Shown here one piece after another: positions 4,332-55,833 of a DNA stretch of 64,000 bases. Each line of letters starts with the position of its first letter. Position 1 is the first letter of the stretch. The stretch lies in assembly GCA_009192285.1 (NCBI GenBank), contig WBVU01000010.1, forward strand, positions 248,001 through 312,000, given 5' to 3'. The notes under the pieces are model-generated. The model was not told the origin of the DNA. It made no database searches and was given only the letters and a program-made list of their open reading frames with translations. The stretch comes from Morchella semilibera. Its lineage: Eukaryota > Ascomycota > Pezizomycetes > Pezizales > Morchellaceae. The translations under genes were made by a program, and so were the position numbers.

Positions 4332-6668
4332 ATGTCGGCTCCTCCTATCCCTTCAAGTCCGGTTAGATCCGTCGGTATCACTCCACCAGACTCATCTCTG
4401 TGGACTCGTCTAACAACATTCGCCTCGGAAAACAAGGCTGTTGTTTACACTATCGGTGCTGTGGTGGTAATTGCCGGGGCCGGTGGTATTTACTACGTCT
4501 CGCAACAGTCGCGAGAAGCCGGAAAGTCCGGAAAGGCTAAGAAAGATAGACGAAAGGATGTCAGGGACAAAGCTTCGTCGAAGGAAAAGAAGGTTGCAGA
4601 TGGTGAGAACTCCAATTGGGGATTATTCATGCTGTCATGGAAGTTTTTTTTTTTTTTTTTTTGTGTGGGCTTTGTATGACGTATTGTGGGGCGCTCAATA
4701 TGCTGATTGTTTATATGTTTCAGAAAGCCAATCCCAACCCTCAGAACAAGAGGAAGCTTATCCTGAAGTGGATGAGGAAATTTTGAAGACTTTGACGCCC
4801 GAGGTACATGGTCCTGTGCATTTTGGTATTTTTTTTTTTTTGTTTGTGGTGCGGGTGTTTTAACATTGGTCTCTATTAGCAAAAAAAAGATTATGCCAGC
4901 AAACTCAAGGCCGCCGGTAACAAGGCATATGGTAACAAGGAGTTTGACCTAGCTATCGAGCTGTACAGCAAGGCCATTCTCTGCAGACCAGATCCGATTT
5001 TCTACTCCAACAGATCTGCCTGTTACAATTCTCTGTCACAATGGCAAAAGGTCGTTGATGATACGAGTGCAGCCATTGCGCTTGATCCAGAATATGTGAA
5101 GGCTCTCAACCGCCGAGCTCATGCTTATGAGCAGCTTGAGAACTACAGCGCAGCCTTGTTGGATTTCACGGCCAGCTGTATTATCGATGGGTTCAGGAAT
5201 GAGGGTGCCGCACAGAGTGTCGAGAGATTGCTTAAGAAGGTTGCTGAGGCAAAAGGAAAGGCTATGTTGGCGGCTAGGCCCAAGAAATTACCTTCGTGCA
5301 CCTTCGTTTCCAACTATTTGCAAAGCTTCAGGCAGAAGGACCGGCCAGCGGGTCTTGAGGACTCCGCACCTCTGCAAGAGGATACTGGAGATTACCATTT
5401 GAGAACCGGTCTCCAGGCTGTGGAGAGAAAATCCGTTGACGGATACGAGGAGGCTAGTGAAGAATTTGAAAAGGCTATGCAGCTTGGTACAAACTTTGAG
5501 GCCTACGCGTTGAACTGGAGGGGTACTTTCAAATATCTGCGGGGAGACCCTATGGAGGCGTTGGAGGATGTGAGCAGGAGTATCGAAACGGACACGACAA
5601 TGACCCAGAGCTACATCAAGCGGGCCAGCATGCTTTTGGAACTTGGTAATTCTCTGCACGCCCAGCTATGGTGGGATAAACATGGAGGTTAACGGATATT
5701 ACAGGTGATCGCGAAGGTGCTTCTATGGACTTTGCCACTGCTCTCGAGAAAAATCCAGACGACCCGGATATCTACTACCACAGGGCGCAGCTCCACTTCA
5801 TCCTCGGAGAATTCGCGGAGGCCGCCAAGGACTACCAGAAGTCAATTGACCTCGACAGGGACTTCATCTTCTCGCACATCCAACTTGGTGTTACGCAATA
5901 CAAGATGGGCTCGGTTGCGTCCTCGATGGCGACGTTCCGAAGATGCATCAAGAACTTTGAAAAGACACCTGATGTGTACAACTACTTCGGAGAACTTTTG
6001 CTTGACCAACAAAAGTATTCAGATGCCATTGAGAAATTCGATACCGCGGTCGAAATGGAGAAGACAGCCAAGCCGATGGCGATGAACGTTTTGCCATTGA
6101 TTAATAAAGCGCTAGCACTGTTTCAGTGGAAGCAGGATTTTGCTGAAGCCGAAAAGCTTTGCGAAAGAGCCCTTATTAGTATGTTTCGAGATTTTCTTTT
6201 GGATTTTTACCTTGCTGACTGGCGGGTTTAGTTGATCCGGACTGTGATATCGCTGTGGCGACAATGGCCCAGCTGCTTCTGCAGCAGGGCAGGGTAAATG
6301 AGGCGCTCAAATACTTTGAGAGGGCTGCTACACTTTCGCGGACCGAGGCAGAGATTGTAAATGCGTTGTCTTATGCTGAGGCTACCAGGACACAGCTTGA
6401 GGTAAATACTGTCCCTTTGAGATCCTAACTCCATGCATTTCATCCCATTTGTTTTTGTGGCGCACTCGATGATGATTCCGCTTTATATCATTGAAGGCCC
6501 CTTGGGCTATATGTTGATACTATGTTGATTTCTGAGTTTATGCCACAACCAAACCTACGCACTCTCTCTATGATCGAGTACTGATTCGCAAAACCCCGGG
6601 GATTTTAGGTACAAGAGAAGTATCCTCAGTTGGCAAACAGACTTCAGGGGATGGGCGGTATGAGATAG
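4332..6668 (+). CDS. TOM70: Mitochondrial import receptor Tom70
   Basis: Tom70 is the outer-membrane TOM-complex receptor that binds chaperone-delivered precursors, especially carrier proteins, through TPRs. There are six exons: 4332-4602, 4724-4803, 4880-5645, 5705-6178, 6232-6401 and 6609-6668. All have GT...AG introns and the frames close exactly, giving 606 residues against about 620 in the family. Residues of about 36-56 ([20 protein letters not shown]) form the single N-terminal anchor, followed by a basic, lysine-rich linker. The clamp-type TPR domain follows ([21 protein letters not shown], then NRSACYNSL and [14 protein letters not shown]). A C-terminal TPR block follows ([23 protein letters not shown], then [22 protein letters not shown]), and the protein ends in the typical short glycine/methionine tail. 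Intron 5 is the longest at 207 nt, and a T17-type run lies in intron 1. The call is secure; only exact junctions could shift slightly. Confidence 0.95.
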
Positions 6669-12035: not shown

Positions 12036-13857
12036 ATGACGACCCCCAAGATCACAGGCATGACGCCCAACACGTTCGCCTTCTCCCCTGCGCTTCTCGG
12101 CCAGTCGCCGGCCGCCCACCAGCTCCTCAGTAAGCACCGCTCGCCAGCACCCCTCCAGGCAGGCTTCAGCACCCCCGAAGCTATCGCGAGCATGGGGATC
12201 GGCCTGACTCCCAACGCTGCCGGAAACTTGGGTATCCCGCAGATCAGCATGAGCGGTATGAACCTGCCCCCGGACGAGAGCAAGAAGCGAGAGCTGGCGG
12301 AGATATTGCGGCTGCTGGCGTCGAAGCCGGGGAGGATCTCGGAGGAGGGGGTGGAGAGACTCGCGAAGCGGATGGGGTGCGTATATACGCTTCGGTGGTG
12401 GAGCTGTTGGCTGATATTCTCAAAGGCTAGAATGCTACAAAGATACAACAGTGCCTGGCGTGACCACAATGTCGCTCGCGGCGAAGATCTTCCTCCTTGA
12501 CATTGATTTCCGTGACTCCCAGATTCCCCGTGTCGCTCTCTCCTTTGCGAATACGGTGGGCCCGTCACAGGAGCTTGCTCACCTCGCGGACGCAATCTTG
12601 CACAAGAACCTCAGTCCGAGCCCGAAGGGGCACCCGCCACTCGTACCGCCCTCGCTGTCCGCGTTCGCGGATAACCTAAACCGCCTCGCAAAGACTGACC
12701 GCCTCAGCTCGCCCCCACACCTGAACTGCTTCACGGCAATAACGGGCCTCTACTCCTCTCTTTCCAAGATCTTTGCACACGAGTCCACAACCCTCGAGGG
12801 CGGCGCAGCAGCCGCAACATGCAAGGGCACCGGCCACCCGCGCATGCACGTGCGGTCAAAGGTCGGCCTCAGTATCGACTACTGGCAGGAGAACCGCTAC
12901 ACCAGCCCCCTCCCAAGCGATAGCTCCGACGAGGAATCGGACATAGACCCGAAGACCTACCGTGTCCTGATCGAGGTCGAGGAGCTCCCCACAGACTTCA
13001 ACCACATCAACCCAATAACCCCAGTCCGCACGTCCTCCGAGTGGGTCTCCGAGGAGATCAAGAAGCCCAGCGACTCCACCGACAACCTCTTTGGCGACTC
13101 GCCCGACTCCGACGTCACGGACTGGCTGGACCCGCCGCTCGAAGAGCTCCTCGAGACACCCATACCAGCGCGCTTCGTGGCAGTGCTGGACCCACCGCTC
13201 GCAATCCCCTTCGTCGACGAGCTCCACCTCTTCAACGCCCTCATGCTCCCGGCGCCGTCCGGGATAAGCGCAGGCACCCTCGAGGCACTCCTCTTCCCCG
13301 GGACCACCACCACCACCGTAGGCACATCGCTGGAGCGCACCCGCCGCGTCTTTGTCGGCGCGGACGACGACGAGACAATCCTACACCGGTACAAGCTGCA
13401 CACGGGCCACAAACCCGTCTACTCCCGCTTCATCCACGAAGTCCCCTTCTCGCACCCAAAGGAGCTCGTCGGCGTCTTCCAGATCCTGCGCCAGTTCGCC
13501 CTCGTCGGGACCCTCCTGCGCAGCTGTTTCGACCCCCTTGCCCCTGCGCCCGCGCCCGCGCCGGCGGAGGACGGACAGGACGACGACCTGGACGCGTTCA
13601 TGGGCGATGGGCCTGCGGAGGGGGATGCGCCGCTGAAGGTTGATGTCTCGCTTGTCAGTAACCAGGAGGGGGGCTTCTGCGTGGGCGTGATTTATCCGTC
13701 TGGGGGCGGGCTGACGAGCTTTGGGGTCGAGGTGGGCAGGAATGCGGAGGTGAGGGTGGTGGGGGATGTGGATGCGGGGGGTGCGGAGAAGGCTGTGGTG
13801 GTCAGTGAGGACTTGGGTATCGTGGTGGAGTGGATCAGGAGGGCTGCGGGTAGGTAG
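12036..13857 (+). CDS. MED1: Mediator subunit 1 (fungal Med1)
   Basis: Med1 belongs to the middle module of Mediator, which links gene-specific activators to RNA polymerase II. Exon 1 is 12036-12376. A 49-nt intron (GTGCGT...AAAG, with a CTGAT-type branch site) ends at 12425. Exon 2 is 12426-13857, giving 590 residues. The join restores the family segment KPGRISEEGVERLAKRMGLECYKDTT, followed by MSLAAKIFLLDIDF and SQIPRVALSFA, the start of the Med1 domain. The N-terminal 80 residues are proline-, serine- and alanine-rich. The C-terminal part keeps the pattern of a beta-rich fold (YKLHTGHKPVYSRFIHEVPFSHPKEL) with an acidic loop near residue 515. The gene is very GC-rich with strong C/G third-position bias, unlike TOM70. 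The assignment rests on the N-terminal signature and is fairly secure. Confidence 0.85.
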
Positions 13858-16677: not shown

Positions 16678-18122
16678 TTACTCCGAGTCGAGACCACCGC
16701 AGATGGTCTCGATCATAATACCAGTGATCTGGTAAGGGCAAGCGTTGGAGGCAGGGCGGCGATCCTCGAAGTATCCGTAACCCTCCTTGGCACAAGACCT
16801 GGGAATACGGATTGAGGAACCACGATCAGCAACACCATATGAGAAGCTGTCGATTGAGCCAGTCTCGTGTCTGCCAGTAAGACGGAGGGTGTTGTCGTCT
16901 CCGTAGACAGCAATGTGCTCCTTGTGACGCTTGGCGAGCTTCTGGATGGCCTCCTCGATGTACTTCATTCCTCCCTCTTTCCTCATCGCCTCAGTAGAAA
17001 CGTTGGTGTGAAGACCAGAGCCGTTCCAGTCACCACTATACAATATTAGACACAAGCTATAACCATGTGATGAACCCGAGATACTTACGGGATGGGCTTA
17101 GGGTGGAAAGAGATCTTAACACCGAACTCCTCAGCAACGCGCTGAAGGAGGTAACGGGACAACCACAAATGGTCACCCACTATGCGAAGTCAGTAGAGGT
17201 TCTTGGTAGTAAAGGAATTTTTGATATACTGACTTTCAATACCCTCGCAAGGTCCAACCTGGAACTCCCACTGGGATGGGAGGACCTCGGCGTTGATACC
17301 AGAGATCTTAATTCCAGCGTACAAGCAGGCACGGTAGTGGGCCTCGACAATGTCACGGCAGTAGACCTTTCCAGTACCAACACCACAGTAGTAAGGACCC
17401 TGAGGACCGGGGAAACCACCCTTGGGCCACCCGTAAGGTTGACCGTACTCGTCAAAGAGGGTGTACTCCTGCTCAAGACCGAACCAGGGCTTCTGGTCCT
17501 TGTGGGCCTCCATGAGCTTGGCGCACTCGTGGCGGTAGTTGAACTTGTTTGGTGCACCGTCGGCGTTCCAGCACTCAGCCAAGACGAGGATGTTGTCGCC
17601 ACCACGGAACGGATCGGGGAAGATGGCGACAGGGCGGAGGTAGACATCAGAGTCTTCACCAGGAGCCTGGCCGGTGGAAGATCCATCGAAGTTCCATTCT
17701 GGGAGGTCTTCGAGAGAGGTAACCTTCTTGGTGACAGTCTAAAGAAAGTTAATAATATGAAAATATAGTTTGTGTTTTGAAGGCGGAATTTGGTGTTGTT
17801 GAGGAATTGATGTCGCGTGTAGTGGGGGCGGGGTATTGCTATTTCGATAAGGAAGGATTACAAACCTTGGTTTTGCTCCTCACTCCGTTAGATCCGTCAA
17901 TCCAGATATACTCGGCTTGTATGCTGCCCTTCTGGTCGAGATTGAGGTATTTGAGAAGCTGCAGATAAAAAAGTTTAGTTTTTGTTTTAATTTAAGTAGT
18001 TTAAACATGAAATTACTGACGTTGGCGGTGTTAGAGATAACCGTTGATTCAGCCTACCAAGAGAAAAAAATGTTAGCGATTTGCTTTAAAGGCTTCGGGT
18101 GATATGGAAGGGCGCTGACCAT
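16678..18122 (-). CDS. Glutamine synthetase
   Basis: Eukaryotic type II glutamine synthetase makes glutamine from glutamate, ammonia and ATP in the cytosol and is central to nitrogen assimilation. There are six exons in transcript order: 18120-18122 (ATG only), 18021-18053, 17866-17958, 17234-17738, 17089-17179 and 16678-17035. They sum to 360 residues, the normal length. Signature parts include [122 protein letters not shown], the nucleotide-binding RLTGRHET, and RGSSIRIPR. All expected active-site segments are present. The 3-nt first exon is supported by a following intron with GCTAAC branch site and TAG acceptor, and gives the start [14 protein letters not shown]-rich sequence with a TATATAA element lies upstream at about 18250-18260. 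Confidence 0.96.
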
Positions 18123-24970: not shown

Positions 24971-26730
24971 GGCGTGGATGTAATTAATTGTATAGCTAGC
25001 TATAGCTCAATTAATCAATAGACGTAGACTAGCTATATATATATTTCCCCTCTCGCTACGAGGAGATTGTGGTTCTGAAAATAGCTTGAATTGGCTATTT
25101 TGTGGTGTTTTCAATATTTCTTGTAGTAAAATTAGATCTCGTGACGTATATTTAGGTATAGTTGCTCAATGAGTAGACTTACATGTATGTGTATATTCTC
25201 GGGCAGTGGTGGTTCTGACGTATGAGGAGGAAGATTTCCTGCTCTTCTGGCGGTCTGCGTAAAAATGATAAGAAGACAAAAAAGGTTGTGGTGAATTCTG
25301 ACGTAAGGGGACGAGGCCGGGTGGTTGTGGTTGTGGTGGATTGGTTCTCCGTGGACAGAAAGACAGACAGACAGACAGGCGAGTATACTCTTTTTCTGTC
25401 TCGCCGAGCGTCTAGATCCTTCGTTTTCGCTTTTGGAAAAGAGAGTTCGTGGCTTTTTTTTCCCTTTTTTTTCTCTTCCTGCCTGCTTGATCGTGGCCTC
25501 TCGTCTCCTGCCCTTGCTGTGACTGTGTCTAGCTGTGTGTGTGGCTACGCGTGGGGCACGTATACAGTCTCTCGGGTAGGTTTATAAAAAAAGATTGGCT
25601 TATAGATATGATTTACGCAGCAGGAGGGTTTTAGAGAAAAGAAGTTTGTGTGTGCGCGCGCGCATATGTGATATACACGAGCAGAAGAAGAAGAAAATGT
25701 TTATGTTACTCCCTCCAACAGCGGCAGCACCCACTCCCATTTATACCCCTCCCCCCCAGATCTGGACGCTAGCCTTCTAGATCTGGCGTCCGCGATGGGT
25801 GAGATCATAGGTCCTCGTTGTCGCTTGATGTGGCTAGGTGGCGTGGCGAGTGAGATCCTGTGACGGGGATCCGGGGGGGGGTTATCTCCGTGGTGGTTGG
25901 GGGATTGTTAGGATACGAGTGCGAGTGTACTGACAGGAAAAGGGTTGGTTGGGGCTGGATTGGGAAGGGGGGGGGAGTGAGGAGGTGTACGTACGGGCGT
26001 ATGATTGTTGGTCACTGGTGCGAGGGTGGGTTTTGGGGGGGGAAAGGTACTGTGCTGGGGGTGCATGGGATCGGGAAGAGGGTCGTTTAATTGACTGCTG
26101 GCCTGGCGTCGTGTGTTTAATAATTAGAGGTGCATGTATAGAGTATGTGTGTTCTGATCATCAATACTGACTGCATGTTTGGCAATGCACGGTTGTTGAG
26201 GGTCAAATTAATACATCTACATTTTGTAGCTGTTGCAATTGTATTGTGTGCTCGCTTAGAGAGACCAAATGTCTCTTATAAAAACACATATATCCATACC
26301 GTAGTCTCGTTCCCAGACTGTTGTTTTGTTGTCGCGCAGTAGCGCTGTGTGCAGAGGATCACCACAGGCTGGGCACGAGACTACAATGTACCTATAACGT
26401 AATATACACTTGCATGTCTACTGTTCTGGATATAAACACTGCTCATGTGTACATGTAGTCATTAACTTGTATTATTAGATCTCAGAGTACACATCCCCAC
26501 TAATCTAAACTACACACACAACCACTTCATACATGTATCCTTAACGTATCTTCGTCCTCATCTTCACCCCCCATCTCCAAATTCATGAAGGTGGCCCATA
26601 CTTAGTGGTCAACCTACTCTTGAAACCATCACGTACCTTTAAAATCACTACATTCATCCTCCCCCAGGTATCTATAGTATACTCATAATCAAAAGAGAAA
26701 GAAAGGAAAAAAATCACGAGCCACCACAAG
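24971..26730. other. Divergent intergenic region
   Basis: This spacer lies between the orphan gene (-) and the ankyrin gene (+). It contains AGACAG tandem units near 25361-25378, T-rich runs and (CG)n near 25656-25664. TACATGTA occurs three times, near 25181, 26453 and 26530. No gene is seen. Confidence 0.5.
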
Positions 26731-28026
26731 ATGACTTCTGCTTCATCCCCCCTCCGAGATCTCACTCTCGACTCCAAATCATCATCTCCCCTATCAACCA
26801 CCTCCGAAAAGTTGCAAGAAAACTCCCCACCACTCTCTCCACCCTCTCCAGATAACTCCACAAAACCCGCCTCTCCGTCCGCTGAGAGCGCCATCTCCAT
26901 GAAGTCTGCCACTCCCGATAGCATTAGCGCCCCCGTCAAAACTCCTACATCCACCTCAATCTCCCCAATCTCCCCGCTCTCCCCTACCAAGCGGTCGCCA
27001 AGATCAGAACCCACTAACCAAAATGCCGACCCCATCACCAAGTTCCTACTCGGAAAATTCCCGTTCATCCGCTCAGACTACGAGCACCGCCCTCTGTTCT
27101 CATCTGCTATCCTCTGGACATCCCGCTTCGGCCACTATCACCCAGCCCGTTGGCTCATTGAGCACGGGGTCGATCTCACACAGCCCAACACCAGTCCCAT
27201 GGGAAAGCTTCGCACCCCACTCCACTACGCCGCTCTCTACGGGCACAAAGAGCTTCTTGCCTATCTTATCATTAAATACACCTCCGCCTCATGCCCGCTC
27301 GACACCCCCCGGGATCTCTACGGCTTCACGCCCCTCCACCTTGCATGTATCGAGCCCCAGACACAAGTCATCGATACCCTTATTCAGCACGGCGCCTCTC
27401 CCACAGTGCGCACCTCCGCTAGTGATACTGCGCTCCATATCGCCGCCAAGACGGCCGGTGAGGCCGTAGTCGAGCTCCTCGTCGAGGCCGGGGCCGACCC
27501 TAATGCGCGCAACATCGGCGGCTATACACCGCTCATGGTCGCTGCAGAGCTCGGCAATGAAGAGGCGATCCTCAAGCTAGCCGAGTATGAGCTTGATCTT
27601 AACGTGCGGGCCGAGTGGAGCGGTGACACGGCACTGCATATGGCGGTACGGGGGGCGCACTTGATGGCGGTGGTGTATCTGCTGCGTATGGGCGCGCAGT
27701 ATGGTATTCGCAACTTTTGCGGACGGAGAGTGCTGGATTATGGGTGGGAGGATATGCCGAGGTTGAGGCGGAGGGAGGCAATCGGCGTGGTGCGTATTCT
27801 ACGAAGTTTACTAGAGGGGAGGGAGAGGTTTGAGGCTGTGGCGGAGGAGGAGACGGGGCGGGGGAGAGGAAGGGAGAGGGGAGGGAAAGGAAAGGTTGTG
27901 GGCGCGTTTTCGGCAGAGGGGGTGAAAAGGGGCGGTAGTGGGAGGAAAAGTGTGTATGACGAGGAGGAGGAGGAGGAGGAGGAGGAGGAGAGTTGGGAGA
28001 GCGCGATGGGGAAGAAGGGAGAGTAG
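26731..28026 (+). CDS. Ankyrin-repeat protein
   Basis: This is a single-exon 431-residue protein. Residues 1-95 are serine/threonine/proline-rich and probably disordered. From about residue 125 an ankyrin array begins. Clear repeat hallmarks are TPLHYAALYGHKELLAYLI (about 161), TPLHLACIEPQTQVIDTLI (about 199), TALHIAAKTAGEAVVELLV (about 232), TPLMVAAELGNEEAILKLA (about 266) and TALHMAVRGAHLMAVVYLL (about 299), with conserved GADPN-type turns between them. The C-terminal 80 residues are charged and end in a run of about ten glutamates encoded by a GAG repeat (27961-27989). Ankyrin arrays bind proteins, and no catalytic domain is seen, so the specific role is unknown. Coding quality is even along the whole frame, so no intron is needed. 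Confidence 0.85.
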   Translation: MTSASSPLRDLTLDSKSSSPLSTTSEKLQENSPPLSPPSPDNSTKPASPSAESAISMKSATPDSISAPVKTPTSTSISPISPLSPTKRSPRSEPTNQNADPITKFLLGKFPFIRSDYEHRPLFSSAILWTSRFGHYHPARWLIEHGVDLTQPNTSPMGKLRTPLHYAALYGHKELLAYLIIKYTSASCPLDTPRDLYGFTPLHLACIEPQTQVIDTLIQHGASPTVRTSASDTALHIAAKTAGEAVVELLVEAGADPNARNIGGYTPLMVAAELGNEEAILKLAEYELDLNVRAEWSGDTALHMAVRGAHLMAVVYLLRMGAQYGIRNFCGRRVLDYGWEDMPRLRRREAIGVVRILRSLLEGRERFEAVAEEETGRGRGRERGGKGKVVGAFSAEGVKRGGSGRKSVYDEEEEEEEEEESWESAMGKKGE

Positions 28027-49975: not shown

Positions 49976-52894
49976 TTATGCCTCCTTCGCCTCTGGCTGC
50001 AACTTGAGGTTTGCCATAATGTTTTCTAGCCCCTCTGTTCCAGACACCTTATCCTTATCCACCTCTTCCGACAAAACCTTAACACTCTCGCAATCCTTAA
50101 CAAGGAAGTGCCACAGGCCTAGTTCTTCAAACTTATCTAGGCGCTTTAAACCGGCTTGTTTAATATAGTTCTCCAGAACCGGCCATACCGTAATATCGGC
50201 AAGACTAATCTCAGGCCCCGATAGATACCGCTTTGTCCTAAACAAATACGCATCCCAAATTGCCAATTCAGCATCAATTGCGGTCTGGTTATCACTTTGT
50301 AATACTTTGTGTAGTCTTTCACTTTCCTGCATCTGCTGTAGAACCTTCGCAAAAGCGGCCCTTTCATCAACAAGAGACGGTAGCAGAAACTTTTCAGGGT
50401 CCTTGGAGGGGTGGAACATTTCAATGTACTGAAGAATTGAGAGTGCCTCACAAACTATTGTTTTTTCGCGGTCAACATCCACAAATACTGGAGTGGTGCC
50501 TCGAGGGCTCAAAGCACGGAAGGAGGGCGAATCAATTTCACCGGGCTCGAGCTCATGAGGAGAAAATTGAATCCCTTTCTCCAGTAGGCACATGCGGGCT
50601 TGCATGCTGCCAATATCACCTTTTGTAAAAAAGAGTTTTGGTAGCTGCGGGACAAAATGCAGGACATCAAAGCCCCCACCGTATGCTGCATCCCAGTCAA
50701 AGTCGCTTTGGTGGTTTTCGGAGCCAAAGGCTTCGATCAGCTTTTGGGTTTCCGGATCGTCACCATTGACAACAGGCCGTGGATCTTCCTCGGACTTGGA
50801 GACGGCACCTTGACCCCATATTTCTTTTTCGTCGGCTGAAAGGAAGGTCCCGATATGGCGGAATGTTAAGGAGATTCTTTCGCCGTTGTGAGACATCTCC
50901 TGGGCGTTCTTGAGGCTCTTCTCACGACGGTCCTGTCGGATTCCGTGAAGCCACTTTTTGTTTGTTTCAAGACCTAGGACAAACATCGAGTTATGGGGAA
51001 GTGGTATACGCTGGGTTGTTCGTTCTGGGCCAGAGCCTTCTGGCCGGTTTGAACTCCTCTTGGGTGACGCTTCGGCAGCTTTCTTTGCGGCATCCTTTTT
51101 TGTTCGGAGAACCATGGTTCGCTGAGCACCCAGACTGACATTGACGATTTTGGACCCTCGCACGATGTCGAGGGTCTTATCAGAGTGTTCGGATATGTAA
51201 TCATTGCCATCGCGGTAGTGTTGAATTAGAACATGGTTCACAGGATGTTTCAGGACCCTTTGGACGCATCCCACTATAAGCTGTACCGTTGGAGAGAATG
51301 GGAGAAGAGGAGGCGACTCGTCAGCTGGATGGCGATATATCGGGAAGCTTTGATATGATGTTAGTCGCGAAGAAGAAACCGATTACTGATCTCAAGCATA
51401 CCTTCCGTCATCATTAATTACCCCCTCCACTGCGACCATTCTCGGGACCTCGCCACCTCGATGGTACATAGTCCTCCAGGCCACCTCTCTCTTTAGGTTC
51501 TCGAATGCCAGTCTAGCCAGGGGTTGAGGCAGGATATTATTGACCAGATTTGAATCGCCTTCACCAAGGAAATCACCTTCTCCCATGATTGGGGATTTTG
51601 AATCGAACTTGTGGCTCCCGGGAGGACTGCTACCTTGGGAGACTGTATTCGACTTGTCGCGTCTCGAACTGCCTGCGTGTGATTTCTTCTTTCTATGTTC
51701 CCTATATACCTTTTCGTCTTTTTTCTTCCCCTCATTGCCAATATTATTGCCCGCGCCTGATCCGGATGCCTCAGCTGCCTCATTTCTGGATATTGACCCC
51801 TTTGAAGCCCTTTGAGCACTTCTTACTGACTTCAAAACCACATTACTCTCTTCACTAATCGGCGCCAGATCAGTTGGGATTAGGTGGACATCGTCAACCG
51901 GCGGGGAAGCCGAACTTTCCGCCGTAACTCCCTTGATAGGCCCTGCAGATGAGTTCTTAGTGCTCTCACCATTACCACCATCACCTGCCACCTTTAGCCC
52001 CTCCACCATTGCAACCAACTGCTCTTTCGAAAGATTGGTGGCCCCCAATTGAATACTGGCTGATCCGTTATCGCTATTACTATTGCCCCCAGCCTTCAAC
52101 CTCTTTCTCTCCCAACTCCTCACCAATAACCCACTCCTAACTTCTTCCACCCCATAATCTTCAGCCATGACCCTTAATGACTGCTGGTGTGCCGTTAAAT
52201 TCCTGTATCCTAGACAGTCCTGCAACACAAAAATCCTCAAACCATGGGTGCTTGCATCGGCTGCCGTTGCAAGAACACATATATTGGTGAGAACTCCACA
52301 TATATACAACTCCGAGACGAACCGCCCTCTTAGCGTCTCAATAAGACCTGTCTCTTTGAAAGCTGAGAACCATGTCTTTACCAAGACCTTATCAGGCGGT
52401 GAGATCGACGAAACGATTGATGGGTGAAACTCGCACGCGGGAGTCCCCGGCTTACACGGTGGATGACTGCTCTCAATCGCCAGGAACGCGTCGGAGCGTA
52501 GCGGGGGTCTTGCGCCATTCGCAAGCTTCGGCTTAGGGCTAGGGAGCCTTCTACTTCCCGGCGTTGTTCCTGCCCCTACTGCTCCTCCGCCGGCCTCATT
52601 GCCGTTGGCCTTGTGGTTGTTGTGCTCTGTCTCTGAGTCGGACGAATCGTCGTCGTCTCTAATTATGAGTACAGTCTGTTGGTTGAGAGGGTCGTTAAGG
52701 TCACGTGGTTTTTGGTGCTCGCTCCGCACCCAGATGACGTCGCCACCGTTTGCGCGGAAGTGCGGGACGAAGGCTTTGATATTCTCGACAAAGGACGGCT
52801 TCCCTTGAGGGGGGCCGGCCATGATGCAACGGCCAATATCAGGATCAAGAAACTCATTCTGGATTCCTAGGACGAGGAGGGCGCTACGAGCCAT
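49976..52894 (-). CDS. Isochorismatase-like/AlkB/GST fusion protein
   Basis: Exon 1 is 51402-52894 and exon 2 is 49976-51347. The 54-nt intron (GTATGC...AAAG) joins them in frame, giving 954 residues. Residues of about 5-270 are isochorismatase-like (ALLVLGIQNEFL, VLVKTWFSAFKETGL, YICGVLTNICVLATAADAST), with an acidic, Ser-rich insertion near 85-125. Residues of about 300-490 are disordered and basic. Residues of about 498-680 are AlkB-like, an Fe(II)/2-oxoglutarate dioxygenase of the nucleic-acid-demethylase type. The metal ligands are H552 and D554 (HSD) and H632 (WLHGI), and the arginine pair is in RISLTFR. Residues of about 733-920 are a GST N- and C-domain (PVFVDVDREKTIVCEALSILQYIE, YLSGPEISLADITVWPVLENYI). 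The conserved AlkB lead-in YRHPADESPPLLPFSPTVQLI sits exactly at the exon junction. An upstream in-frame ATG at 53029 is less likely. The cellular role is not known to me. Confidence 0.88.
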
Positions 52895-54476
52895 GTTTAT
52901 AAGGATCTTCTTTTCGCTACCAGTACTTATGGGGCTGGCATATACTGATATAACTGGGCAAGATGAGAGTAAGGTTACTTGTATGCACTGCAGCTGAGGA
53001 AGGGGGGGGGGGGTAACAAAAGAGACCACCAGAGTTAATATAACAGAGTGTCAAGGACAGGATGAAGAGTGAAAAGGCGTGAGAGAACAAGAAACGAAGA
53101 AAGAGGGATTTTTGCCTCCTTTATTCTAATACCTCCACATAAAAGAATGCCAGAGAATGCCAGGAAAAGAGCAGGGAGAGCTGTGCGACTTGCTGCCGCC
53201 GCGGTTTTCTGGGCGATTGTCCCGAGAGTCTGGAAAGACTGAGTCACTAGTGTCTGTCCACTTTCACATTACTTGCACTTTCCTCTCAACTCACCCTCAC
53301 CCACACGGGAAGAGACATTGTGGTCACATCGTTTGGTTTGGGGCTCTGGGGCTCTGGGGGGGTTTGCGGTGAGTGGGATACCTGGCTGAGAAAGAAAGCA
53401 GACCCTGCAAATTACAATATGCTACCGGAAAAACTACATGTATGTACATGTATGTACCTAGCATTACCACGTATGGGTTTTTGGGCTTTCTGCAGGACTA
53501 CCCACATGAGGTGCTCTAGCTACCCTCTGTACCAACTCTGGAAAGGTCAACCCGCCAGTCAGTAGAGTTATTAGAGACTTTGCGCAAATGGAGTCAGTTC
53601 TATATTATATTTCAATTATCTAATTGATAGGCTATGGGATCGGCATCAATCAGGTTACCGGAAAATAGAGCTGGCTCCATTTACACAGAGTGTCTATTGG
53701 GAAAACCTGTGTGGGTTGAATTTTTTTTTATTTCATTTGGTGCCTAGTTGATTAAGGGAAGGGGGATAGGCCATGGAGAGATGATCACCAGCCACTCAGG
53801 CGCTTTTTTTTTTTTGTTTGATCCGTTACATGCTTGGTTGCTGCAAACCGCCGCCGCAGGCCGACAACGAACGCTGCTTAGTAGTCTGGAAAATCAATCT
53901 CGGATATCCGCATCACAGACCATCACCAACACTCGCAAAACTACTAACCCAGAGCAAACCAAGCTAGCTAGGCTTCAGGCCGTTCAGCAACTAATTAATG
54001 TGTACCTACATGTACATAATTTTACATAAATAAACACTCCTATTCTCAGGATCTAAACCATTATAGAACTAATTCCACCCGAATACGGCCAAGGCAGCTA
54101 GGCACCAAGCATAAATCCTACAATTATTGGGCCTTAGATCTCTCAGTAGATTTTTCTCTAGCCGGGTATTTTTACTAATACTACATACTATTACTTACTC
54201 AAATTCTTTGTGCAGTAGTCAGAATTACCCTAGTATCTTAACGATATTACTTGCCTGAACGATTCAAAAGCAAACAGAGATGGGGATTATTTCTTGAGGA
54301 CTTATCTTCTTATATGTGCGTGCCTTTTCTCGAAGAGTATCTTCCCACGACTACCACTCAAATTCTCAACACCTTAGTGCCGCTAAAATATTTATCTTAG
54401 TGAGGCTTTGAGAATATTTCGATATACAATTACAACTCATCCCCACGGACAAGTCAGCGTCGATTAATATCCAACA
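52895..54476. other. Divergent promoter region
   Basis: This region of about 1.6 kb lies between the fusion gene (-) and the CCCH gene (+). It contains three TACATGTA copies (two at about 53436-53452, one near 54006), a G10 run at about 53004 in the antisense leader and a T9 run. No gene is seen. Confidence 0.5.
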
Positions 54477-55833
54477 ATGGCCCCCAATCCCTCACAACCA
54501 CCCCCAAACAATACCGAAAGTATCCCAATACTCCATTACAACTATCTTCTTCTCCGCCAAAACGGGACAGTACTCCCTCTCGTTTCAGCAGCTGATCTCC
54601 CATTGACATTCACCGTGCTTCCACCAACCAGTCCAGGAATAATATCTCTTCTTCAGGAAATCTCTCACCCAAGAGCTTCGCCAGAGGTATTGGGAACTAC
54701 GTCGGTGCCAGCGGCAGCATTTACACCGCAAAATTCCAGTGGATTGGTTCAGTACCATGGCCAAGGCAAAGAAACCCAATCCTTGGGTCGTGAGAAATCT
54801 GCCACTACCCCTGCAGAGTCGGGGTGTTCTCGTGACGACGCAGAAATTCAGTCGAGGGCTACTCCGTCTTCCTCTGCTTTCTCTTCCGCTTCTTCTACAG
54901 AGGAATATTCAAAGAATGGTACACTTTACACCCATTCACATTCACACAAGAAACTATCCTCCCAACAAATAGTACCTTTGGAGGAGGGAGAAGGTGTTGG
55001 GCGACGTAAGGCCCGGCCTTGCGCTTATTTCCACAGAAGGATTGGTTGCAGGCGTGGGAAAGACTGTTTCTACATTCACACCCCTCCCACGGAGAAAGTG
55101 CACAAAGACACTAGAGACGGCTCAACCAGTTTACCGGGACGAGCTACTGACACCTCTTCCCCCGAGTCAATTTCTGAGAGAGAAAGGGATGCACACAGAT
55201 ACAGGAGTATTGGTGGCAAATGGAGAAGAGAAGAATATGAGGAGGTCGTAGCTCAAAAAGAAGAGGGGGATGGGGAGGAAGAGTGTAGTAGTGAAGTCAG
55301 AGGTAAAGAGGTGAATATTTACCAGCTAAAATTTATTTATTCTCATTATATGCCCGATCTTAGCACACTCTCATAGGCTTCTAGTTCATCCTTCTTTCCT
55401 TTTCTTTTTCTTTCTCTGAGCTGTACCTATCCCACCTGCAGCACAACCCCCCCCCCCCCCCCCCACTAGAGCGTTTAGCTTTGCTACAAGTCAACCCAAT
55501 AATAGTTATTTTCTGTGATTTGAGCTCACAAATACAATCACTTCCTCCCACCCTTTACCCTTCTCCTACTTTCTAACCCTACGCATCTCGCAGGACTCGC
55601 CGACACCACCACAACACATCAAAACGCACTGTACCTTCTTTTTGCGATTCGGCGAATGTGACTACTGGCCTACCTGCAAGTTCTCGCACGAGCGGCCTGA
55701 AGGAAGTTGGAAAGCCAGCAGTAGAAAGCTTACGACTACACTTCCCCCGAGAAGCTCGGGAAGTAGTAATTCTATTTCTAGCTTTGAGCTGTACGAAGAG
55801 AAGCCGAGAGTGGGGAAATTGATCTCATATTAA
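54477..55833 (+). CDS. CCCH zinc-finger protein
   Basis: The gene has two exons, 54477-55310 and 55594-55833, giving 357 residues. The N-terminal segment IPILHYNYLLLRQNGTVLPLVSAADLP resembles a small conserved fold near the start, then a Ser-rich linker. Two zinc fingers both have CX8CX5CX3H spacing. The first, near residue 181, is CAYFHRRIGCRRGKDCFYIH. The second, at the start of exon 2, is CTFFLRFGECDYWPTCKFSH. CCCH fingers usually bind RNA, so a role in mRNA processing or turnover is likely. The 283-nt intron is long for this window and contains a C18 run at about 55447-55464. Donor GTGAAT at 55311 was preferred over GTAAAG at 55303 because only it keeps the second finger in frame. No named orthologue is claimed. 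Confidence 0.82.

Follow-up and report, generated by a model that had tools for sequence, protein, structure and literature searches.

A window of 64,000 nucleotides from the ascomycete Morchella semilibera (GenBank assembly GCA_009192285.1, contig WBVU01000010.1, positions 248,001 to 312,000 of the forward strand) contains, at positions 49976-52894 of its minus strand, a gene for a three-part fusion protein. Specifically, from the N- to the C-terminus the predicted product incorporates 1) an isochorismatase-like domain; 2) an AlkB-type dioxygenase domain, whose chemistry depends on Fe(II) and 2-oxoglutarate (2OG); and 3) N- and C-terminal parts resembling those of glutathione transferase (GST). 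What is new here, as far as residues can be read from one protein, is a combination: apparently intact catalytic residues in the dioxygenase, an altered base pocket and partner domains whose own sites appear degenerate.

A single spliced gene

The gene runs from an ATG at 52894 to a stop codon ending at 49976 and has a single intron, the removal of which gives a spliced translation of 954 amino acids plus stop; left unspliced, the frame meets a stop after 500 residues. Eight AG dinucleotides lie in the 151 nucleotides past the donor, and with only two of them as acceptor does the frame stay open to the stop codon. One gives an intron of 54 nucleotides and the protein of 954 amino acids, while the other gives an intron of 144 nucleotides and a protein of 924 amino acids that lacks 30 residues of the AlkB domain. 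The longer intron was rejected, as part of the AlkB domain would be deleted, and the 54-nucleotide acceptor is the only one of the eight that leaves this domain whole.

Both joints between domains fall inside open frames, that between the isochorismatase-like domain and the AlkB lead-in within the frame of exon 1 and that between the AlkB core and the GST-like part within the frame of exon 2, and the match to the AlkB profile PF13532 (amino acids 450-661) crosses the splice junction in codon 498. A merger of neighbouring genes was therefore rejected and, as far as sequence alone allows, the three-part fusion is real and belongs to one gene. A preliminary description of this DNA had proposed one spliced gene with this domain order, strand, extent and intron, and had argued that the AlkB lead-in across the intron junction excludes an artefact of merging neighbours; the spliced translation and the Pfam matches bear out both points.

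The whole protein scores 111.6 bits against PF13532 (cut-off 31.2) and 103.9 bits, in two stretches, against the isochorismatase family profile PF00857 (cut-off 27). Taken as separate parts, amino acids 4-65 score 26.6 bits against PF00857, just under that cut-off, and the C-terminal piece 86.1. GST_N_3 gives 38.8 bits with the whole protein and 42.1 with the part alone (cut-off 22); GST_C_3 gives 21.1 bits with the whole protein, just below its cut-off of 21.6, and 24.2 with the C-terminal part alone. The isochorismatase, AlkB-type and GST N- and C-terminal profiles by which the preliminary description could be checked have thus all found a match, GST_C_3 rising above its cut-off on the part alone. 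None of the NCBIfam functional families reached its cut-off in a scan of the fusion protein, the best score being 34 bits against a required 300.

We also searched the rest of the genome (56.8 Mb in 23 contigs). A protein search returned only the fusion gene and an identical copy on a second contig, C10. The window (C9:248001-312000) is 100% identical throughout to C10:248049-312048, the two contigs having lengths of 2,071,371 and 2,071,177. Because the identity covers all 64,000 bases, we treat C10 as an assembly duplicate; the chromosome is probably present twice in the assembly, which inflates copy counts.

The AlkB site and its base pocket

The AlkB domain was compared with the best 80 of 137 relatives obtained from a genome contig scan with an AlkB alignment, all of which carry bacterial titles. 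In the fusion, H552, D554 and H632 form the HxD...H iron site and R655 and R661 the RxxxxxR 2OG site, so that the complete residue set noted in the preliminary description (HSD...H and RISLTFR) is indeed present. Among the 80 bacterial loci both histidines, the aspartate and the first arginine are invariant, and the last arginine is found in 79, with a gap in the remaining one. The Pro-Arg motif, which is common to all 80, is also retained.

The position four residues after the first iron-binding histidine (H+4) is where the fusion departs from this pattern. In ALKBH2/3-type enzymes an acidic residue at this position recognises the base, and it is Glu in ALKBH2, in 79 of the 80 bacterial loci (Asn in the other) and in a separate ALKBH2/3-like gene of the same genome, whereas the fusion has Thr556. 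The 80 loci had been retrieved with patterns that stop at H+3 and were therefore not selected for the residue at H+4. Two further pocket positions differ, in a region where the alignment contains gaps: a Ser found in 80/80 loci aligns with Pro505 and a Trp found in 73/80 with Val489.

The effect of such changes has been examined in other AlkB proteins. The E175A variant of human ABH2 loses activity on both 1-methyladenine (m1A) and 3-methylcytosine (m3C) (PMC12295762). The D135A variant of AlkB retains less than 5% of its activity on m1A and gains repair of N1-methylguanine (m1G) (PMC2800194), and D135T, an engineered m1G demethylase, is more active on m1G than D135S (PMC7968990). Given that Thr556 replaces the acidic base-selecting residue, ordinary repair of m1A and m3C by the fusion protein looks doubtful. 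The idea that the protein serves nucleic-acid or base repair, as put forward in the preliminary description, thus stands in part: the full set of Fe(II) and 2OG residues favours it, but repair of the ordinary kind is in doubt.

Structure prediction is consistent with the placing of the domain. In a PDB sequence search ALKBH2 is the closest solved relative (E 4.8e-13), ALKBH3 giving 9.2e-5. A model of exon 2 was built from an alignment of 46 rows that included sequences from 37 of the 80 bacterial loci and eight GST-like frames; its AlkB core, mostly at pLDDT 80-94, is predicted to adopt the double-stranded beta-helix of AlkB proteins, and its GST half is of low confidence. Using Foldseek with this model, human ABH2 ranked first (E 6.1e-11) and ALKBH3 first appeared at rank 12, in agreement with the sequence search. 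For the isochorismatase domain, a model predicted with no alignment as input reached a pLDDT of 36 and was discarded.

PF13532 matches six places in the genome, two of which are the fusion copies. Of the remaining four, one (L003) looks ALKBH1-like, one (L004) looks like a standalone ALKBH2/3-like gene, one (L005) looks like a Cys-rich type and one (L006) is perhaps ALKBH6-like. L004 (C23:1719795-1722947) is split by introns and has Glu at the base-selecting position, and its presence means that the fusion is not the sole AlkB of the ALKBH2/3 group in this genome. L005 (C19:521557-524895) has a Cys-rich stretch, CPKC...C-x2-C, upstream of its dioxygenase part and may be an AlkB variant that binds zinc.

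The isochorismatase-like and GST-like modules

The catalytic triad of the isochorismatase family consists of Asp, Lys and Cys. A search of 30 genomes, 24 of which had a match, supplied 30 bacterial isochorismatase domains for comparison with the fusion; the GST-like part was compared with 28 bacterial GST N-terminal domains. The triad is incomplete in the fusion, which has Gly10 in place of the Asp and retains Lys173 and Cys206; among the bacterial homologues the Lys is present in 25/30 and the Cys likewise in 25/30. Homologues also lie at five other places in the same genome, and the Asp is found in all four that have a readable motif. The GST-like part is altered at two positions, with Asp742 where GSTs have an N-terminal Ser, Cys or Tyr and Glu798-Ala799 at the glutathione-binding E/D-S motif, a change from 'ES' to 'EA' that is also visible in PDB alignments; cis-Pro784, found in 28/28 of the bacterial domains, is retained.

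The simplest reading of these changes is that both modules are probably folded and non-catalytic. The preliminary description had suggested that repair may be coupled to the processing of a small molecule or to a glutathione-linked step, and this is not supported, in view of Gly10, Asp742, Ala799 and the absence of any NCBIfam family at its cut-off. A nicotinamidase identity for the first module was also rejected: the stretch DWHP..H, which we take to be the nicotinamidase motif, occurs in a nicotinamidase-like gene of the same genome (L012) and was not seen in the fusion on inspection, no formal motif test having been made. The coordinates of all these features are collected in Table 1.

Table 1. 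Parts of the fusion gene and key codons, with positions in the window.
Feature	Positions	Strand	Details
Exon 1	51402..52894	-	1493 nt; isochorismatase-like domain, linker and AlkB start; within a 552-codon open frame
Intron	51348..51401	-	54 nt; GTATGC donor, GACTAAC, AAAG acceptor; predicted from sequence
Exon 2	49976..51347	-	1372 nt, stop included; AlkB core and GST-like part; within a 468-codon open frame
Isochorismatase-like domain, aa 4-246	52157..52885	-	PF00857, two stretches
Low-complexity insert splitting the isochorismatase domain, about aa 67-140	52475..52696	-	Gap between the PF00857 stretches; sequence
Ser/Gly-rich linker, aa 251-449	51548..52144	-	About 200 residues with three short basic clusters; composition; no Pfam match
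AlkB-type 2OG-Fe(II) dioxygenase domain, aa 450-661	50858..51547	-	PF13532; interrupted by the intron; ALKBH2 best match by sequence and fold
GST N-terminal (thioredoxin-like) part, aa 734-812	50405..50641	-	GST_N_3, 38.8 bits; PF24470, 31.7 bits
GST C-terminal part, aa 830-919	50084..50353	-	GST_C_3
Gly10 codon, position of the isochorismatase catalytic Asp	52865..52867	-	Asp 28/30, Glu 2/30 in bacterial homologues
Thr556 codon, position of E. coli AlkB D135 and ALKBH2 E175 (H+4)	51173..51175	-	Glu 79/80, Asn 1/80 in bacterial AlkB loci
Asp742 codon, position of the GST N-terminal Ser/Cys	50615..50617	-	Ser 18, Cys 5, Ala 3, Asp 1, Gln 1 among 28
Ala799 codon, position of Ser in the GST E/D-S motif	50444..50446	-	Ser 27/28, Ala 1/28

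Elsewhere in the window, a divergent frame on the plus strand just upstream of the fusion gene (54468-55376) contains a CCCH-like stretch (CAYFHRRIGCRRGKDCFYIH) and has no Pfam match at E 0.001. Further plus-strand frames match Mediator subunit 1 (12415-13854; PF10744, 240.1 bits), TPR repeats (4880-5689) and ankyrin repeats (26689-28023), and a frame on the minus strand (17193-17738) matches a glutamine synthetase beta-grasp domain.

Relatives and possible function

The architecture has probably been registered in databases already. The Pfam family PF24470, named 'Isochorismatase, thioredoxin-like', matches the GST N-terminal region of the fusion (amino acids 734-812, over positions 4-86 of 87), which is a likeness by profile and name, although the score of 31.7 bits at best is below the cut-off of 35. 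In the Morchella genome only the two fusion copies matched this profile, 7 of the 9 GST_N_3 places lying elsewhere, and none of 14 control genomes gave a match. The name of the family implies that isochorismatase proteins carrying a thioredoxin-like domain are known to Pfam. In Fusarium graminearum, FGRRES_09872 ('ALKBH2') is a PF13532 protein of 933 amino acids that is described as lying near human ALKBH3 and Arabidopsis ALKBH2 and whose expression rises strongly at ascospore formation, and knockouts of the factors studied there were reported to show, as a group, normal growth and sexual development (PMC10826363); elsewhere it is listed as 'Similar to DNA repair dioxygenase AlkB' (PMC6094484). 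It shares PF13532 and nearly the same length with the fusion (933 against 954 amino acids), and on the basis of this length it is possibly a relative that carries isochorismatase and GST parts, which the accessible parts of the paper do not mention (PMC10826363). The preliminary description had tentatively suggested that related fusions occur in filamentous ascomycetes, and PF24470 and the 933-amino acid F. graminearum protein lend indirect support to this.

Other known AlkB proteins resemble the fusion in part. The almost entirely fungal types ALKBH11, ALKBH12 and ALKBH13 cluster with ALKBH2/3 (PMC3265494), a likeness that we draw from their description. Human ALKBH2 and ALKBH3, the best solved relatives by both sequence and fold, share the HxD...H...R...R set and the Pro-Arg motif; they are, however, standalone enzymes, and ALKBH2 has Glu175 at the position of Thr556. 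The engineered E. coli AlkB D135T shares the Thr at H+4 (PMC7968990), but was made in the laboratory from a bacterial enzyme that stands alone, and the rest of its pocket is unlike that of the fusion.

A published description of the fusion was not found in a literature search that misses most subscription journals. Papers that mention both isochorismatase and AlkB include none on a fungal fusion, as judged by their titles, and the accessible parts of PMC3475032 and PMC13297926 do not mention it. Scans of viral contigs with the whole protein, the isochorismatase piece, an alignment and a 27-base degenerate motif pattern returned no relative. AlkB is a standalone protein in the 80 bacterial loci (81 frames of 192-394 codons match it), and three queries at E 0.01 found no isochorismatase-like frame near it. 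A GST-like frame lies about 2 kb upstream of AlkB in eight of these loci (L031, L037, L049, L061, L064, L067, L069 and L082), all titled SAR86; the eight frames resemble general glutathione transferases and score below every NCBIfam cut-off, and in L067, the one of the eight whose frames were listed, the GST-like frame is separated from AlkB by two frames on the reverse strand. No reading is based on this neighbourhood.

We propose that the gene encodes a dioxygenase of the AlkB type whose base preference is non-classical, set between two enzyme-derived modules that are probably non-catalytic, a reading that we consider about evenly poised between right and wrong. The dioxygenase would be a working Fe(II)/2-oxoglutarate enzyme of the ALKBH2/3 group, which would take a modified DNA or RNA base into its pocket and oxidise it. 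Since the enzyme lacks the acidic side chain by which the exocyclic amine of adenine or cytosine is held, the preference may have shifted from m1A and m3C to bases with a carbonyl at the corresponding edge, m1G being the first candidate and N2,N2-dimethylguanine or N3-methyl-uracil/thymine the next. The isochorismatase-like and GST-like modules could act as oligomerisation, binding or sensing parts. The substrate and the roles of the modules are the least certain steps of this proposal.

A number of observations weigh against it. The substitutions have been read in one fungal sequence only, the pocket region 498-505 is aligned with gaps, and the GST half of the predicted model is unreliable. 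Among the 30 bacterial isochorismatase homologues the Cys is missing from five and the Lys from five, both of which residues the fusion keeps, and at the two GST positions Asp and Ala each occur in 1/28 of the bacterial domains. GST subfamilies that use other catalytic residues also exist. At the base-selecting site the ALKBH1-like gene of the same genome has Ser and FTO has Asn (PMC2800194), so that m1G does not follow from the lack of an acidic residue alone. Moreover, at high enzyme excess AlkB D135T cleared yeast tRNA of more than 90% of its m1A (PMC7968990), so a Thr need not exclude m1A.

This retained activity of D135T on tRNA is also an argument for the nearest alternative, namely that the protein is a classical ALKBH2/3-type m1A and m3C repair enzyme which tolerates the Thr and carries non-catalytic accessory domains. 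ALKBH2 being nearest by both sequence and fold, and the grouping of the possible relative FGRRES_09872 with repair-type ALKBH3 and ALKBH2 (PMC10826363), agree with it as well; yet ABH2 E175A is reported to be inactive on both lesions (PMC12295762), Glu is nearly universal at this position in the bacterial relatives, and the separate gene L004 keeps it, and overall we regard a classical enzyme as possible but clearly the less favoured explanation. An alternative in which all three sites are active, so that base repair, small-molecule hydrolysis and a glutathione step form one channel, would account for the clear recognition of the isochorismatase and GST folds and for the retention of Lys173, Cys206, the cis-Pro and Glu798, but the replacements at Gly10, Asp742 and Ala799, together with NCBIfam equivalogs that are far from their cut-offs, make it unlikely.

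More improbable still is that the whole protein is non-catalytic or modifies proteins, its dioxygenase not acting on nucleic acids. The changed pocket positions (Pro505 for an invariant Ser and Val489 for Trp, in the gapped region) and the normal phenotype of the F. graminearum knockouts as a group (PMC10826363) would fit such a role, but the retention of all Fe and 2OG residues and of the Pro-Arg motif argues against it. That two or three adjacent genes have been taken for one can draw on a gene model predicted from sequence alone and on a contig that is duplicated in the assembly; with each joint inside a single long open frame, PF13532 spanning the splice and PF24470 tying a thioredoxin-like part to isochorismatase proteins, we give this very little credence.

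The proposed dioxygenase with altered base preference can be carried further, to a natural and lineage-wide fungal counterpart of AlkB D135T that acts on m1G (or N2,N2-dimethylguanine) in RNA or DNA, is held on a scaffold of two dead enzymes and has a developmental role, the last hinted at by the probable relative in F. graminearum, which is induced when ascospores form. In this full form the idea is speculative and rather unlikely, and for the combined reading the decisive question is its generality across fungi. Were the residues not conserved, the gene would be of modest interest, as an unusual fusion that involves a fungal AlkB. Conservation of the Thr556 pocket would mean that a natural fungal enzyme has a base preference which was engineered into AlkB for use in tRNA sequencing (PMC7968990) and, if the proposal is true, two common enzyme folds would have been reused as non-catalytic modules flanking a nucleic-acid dioxygenase.

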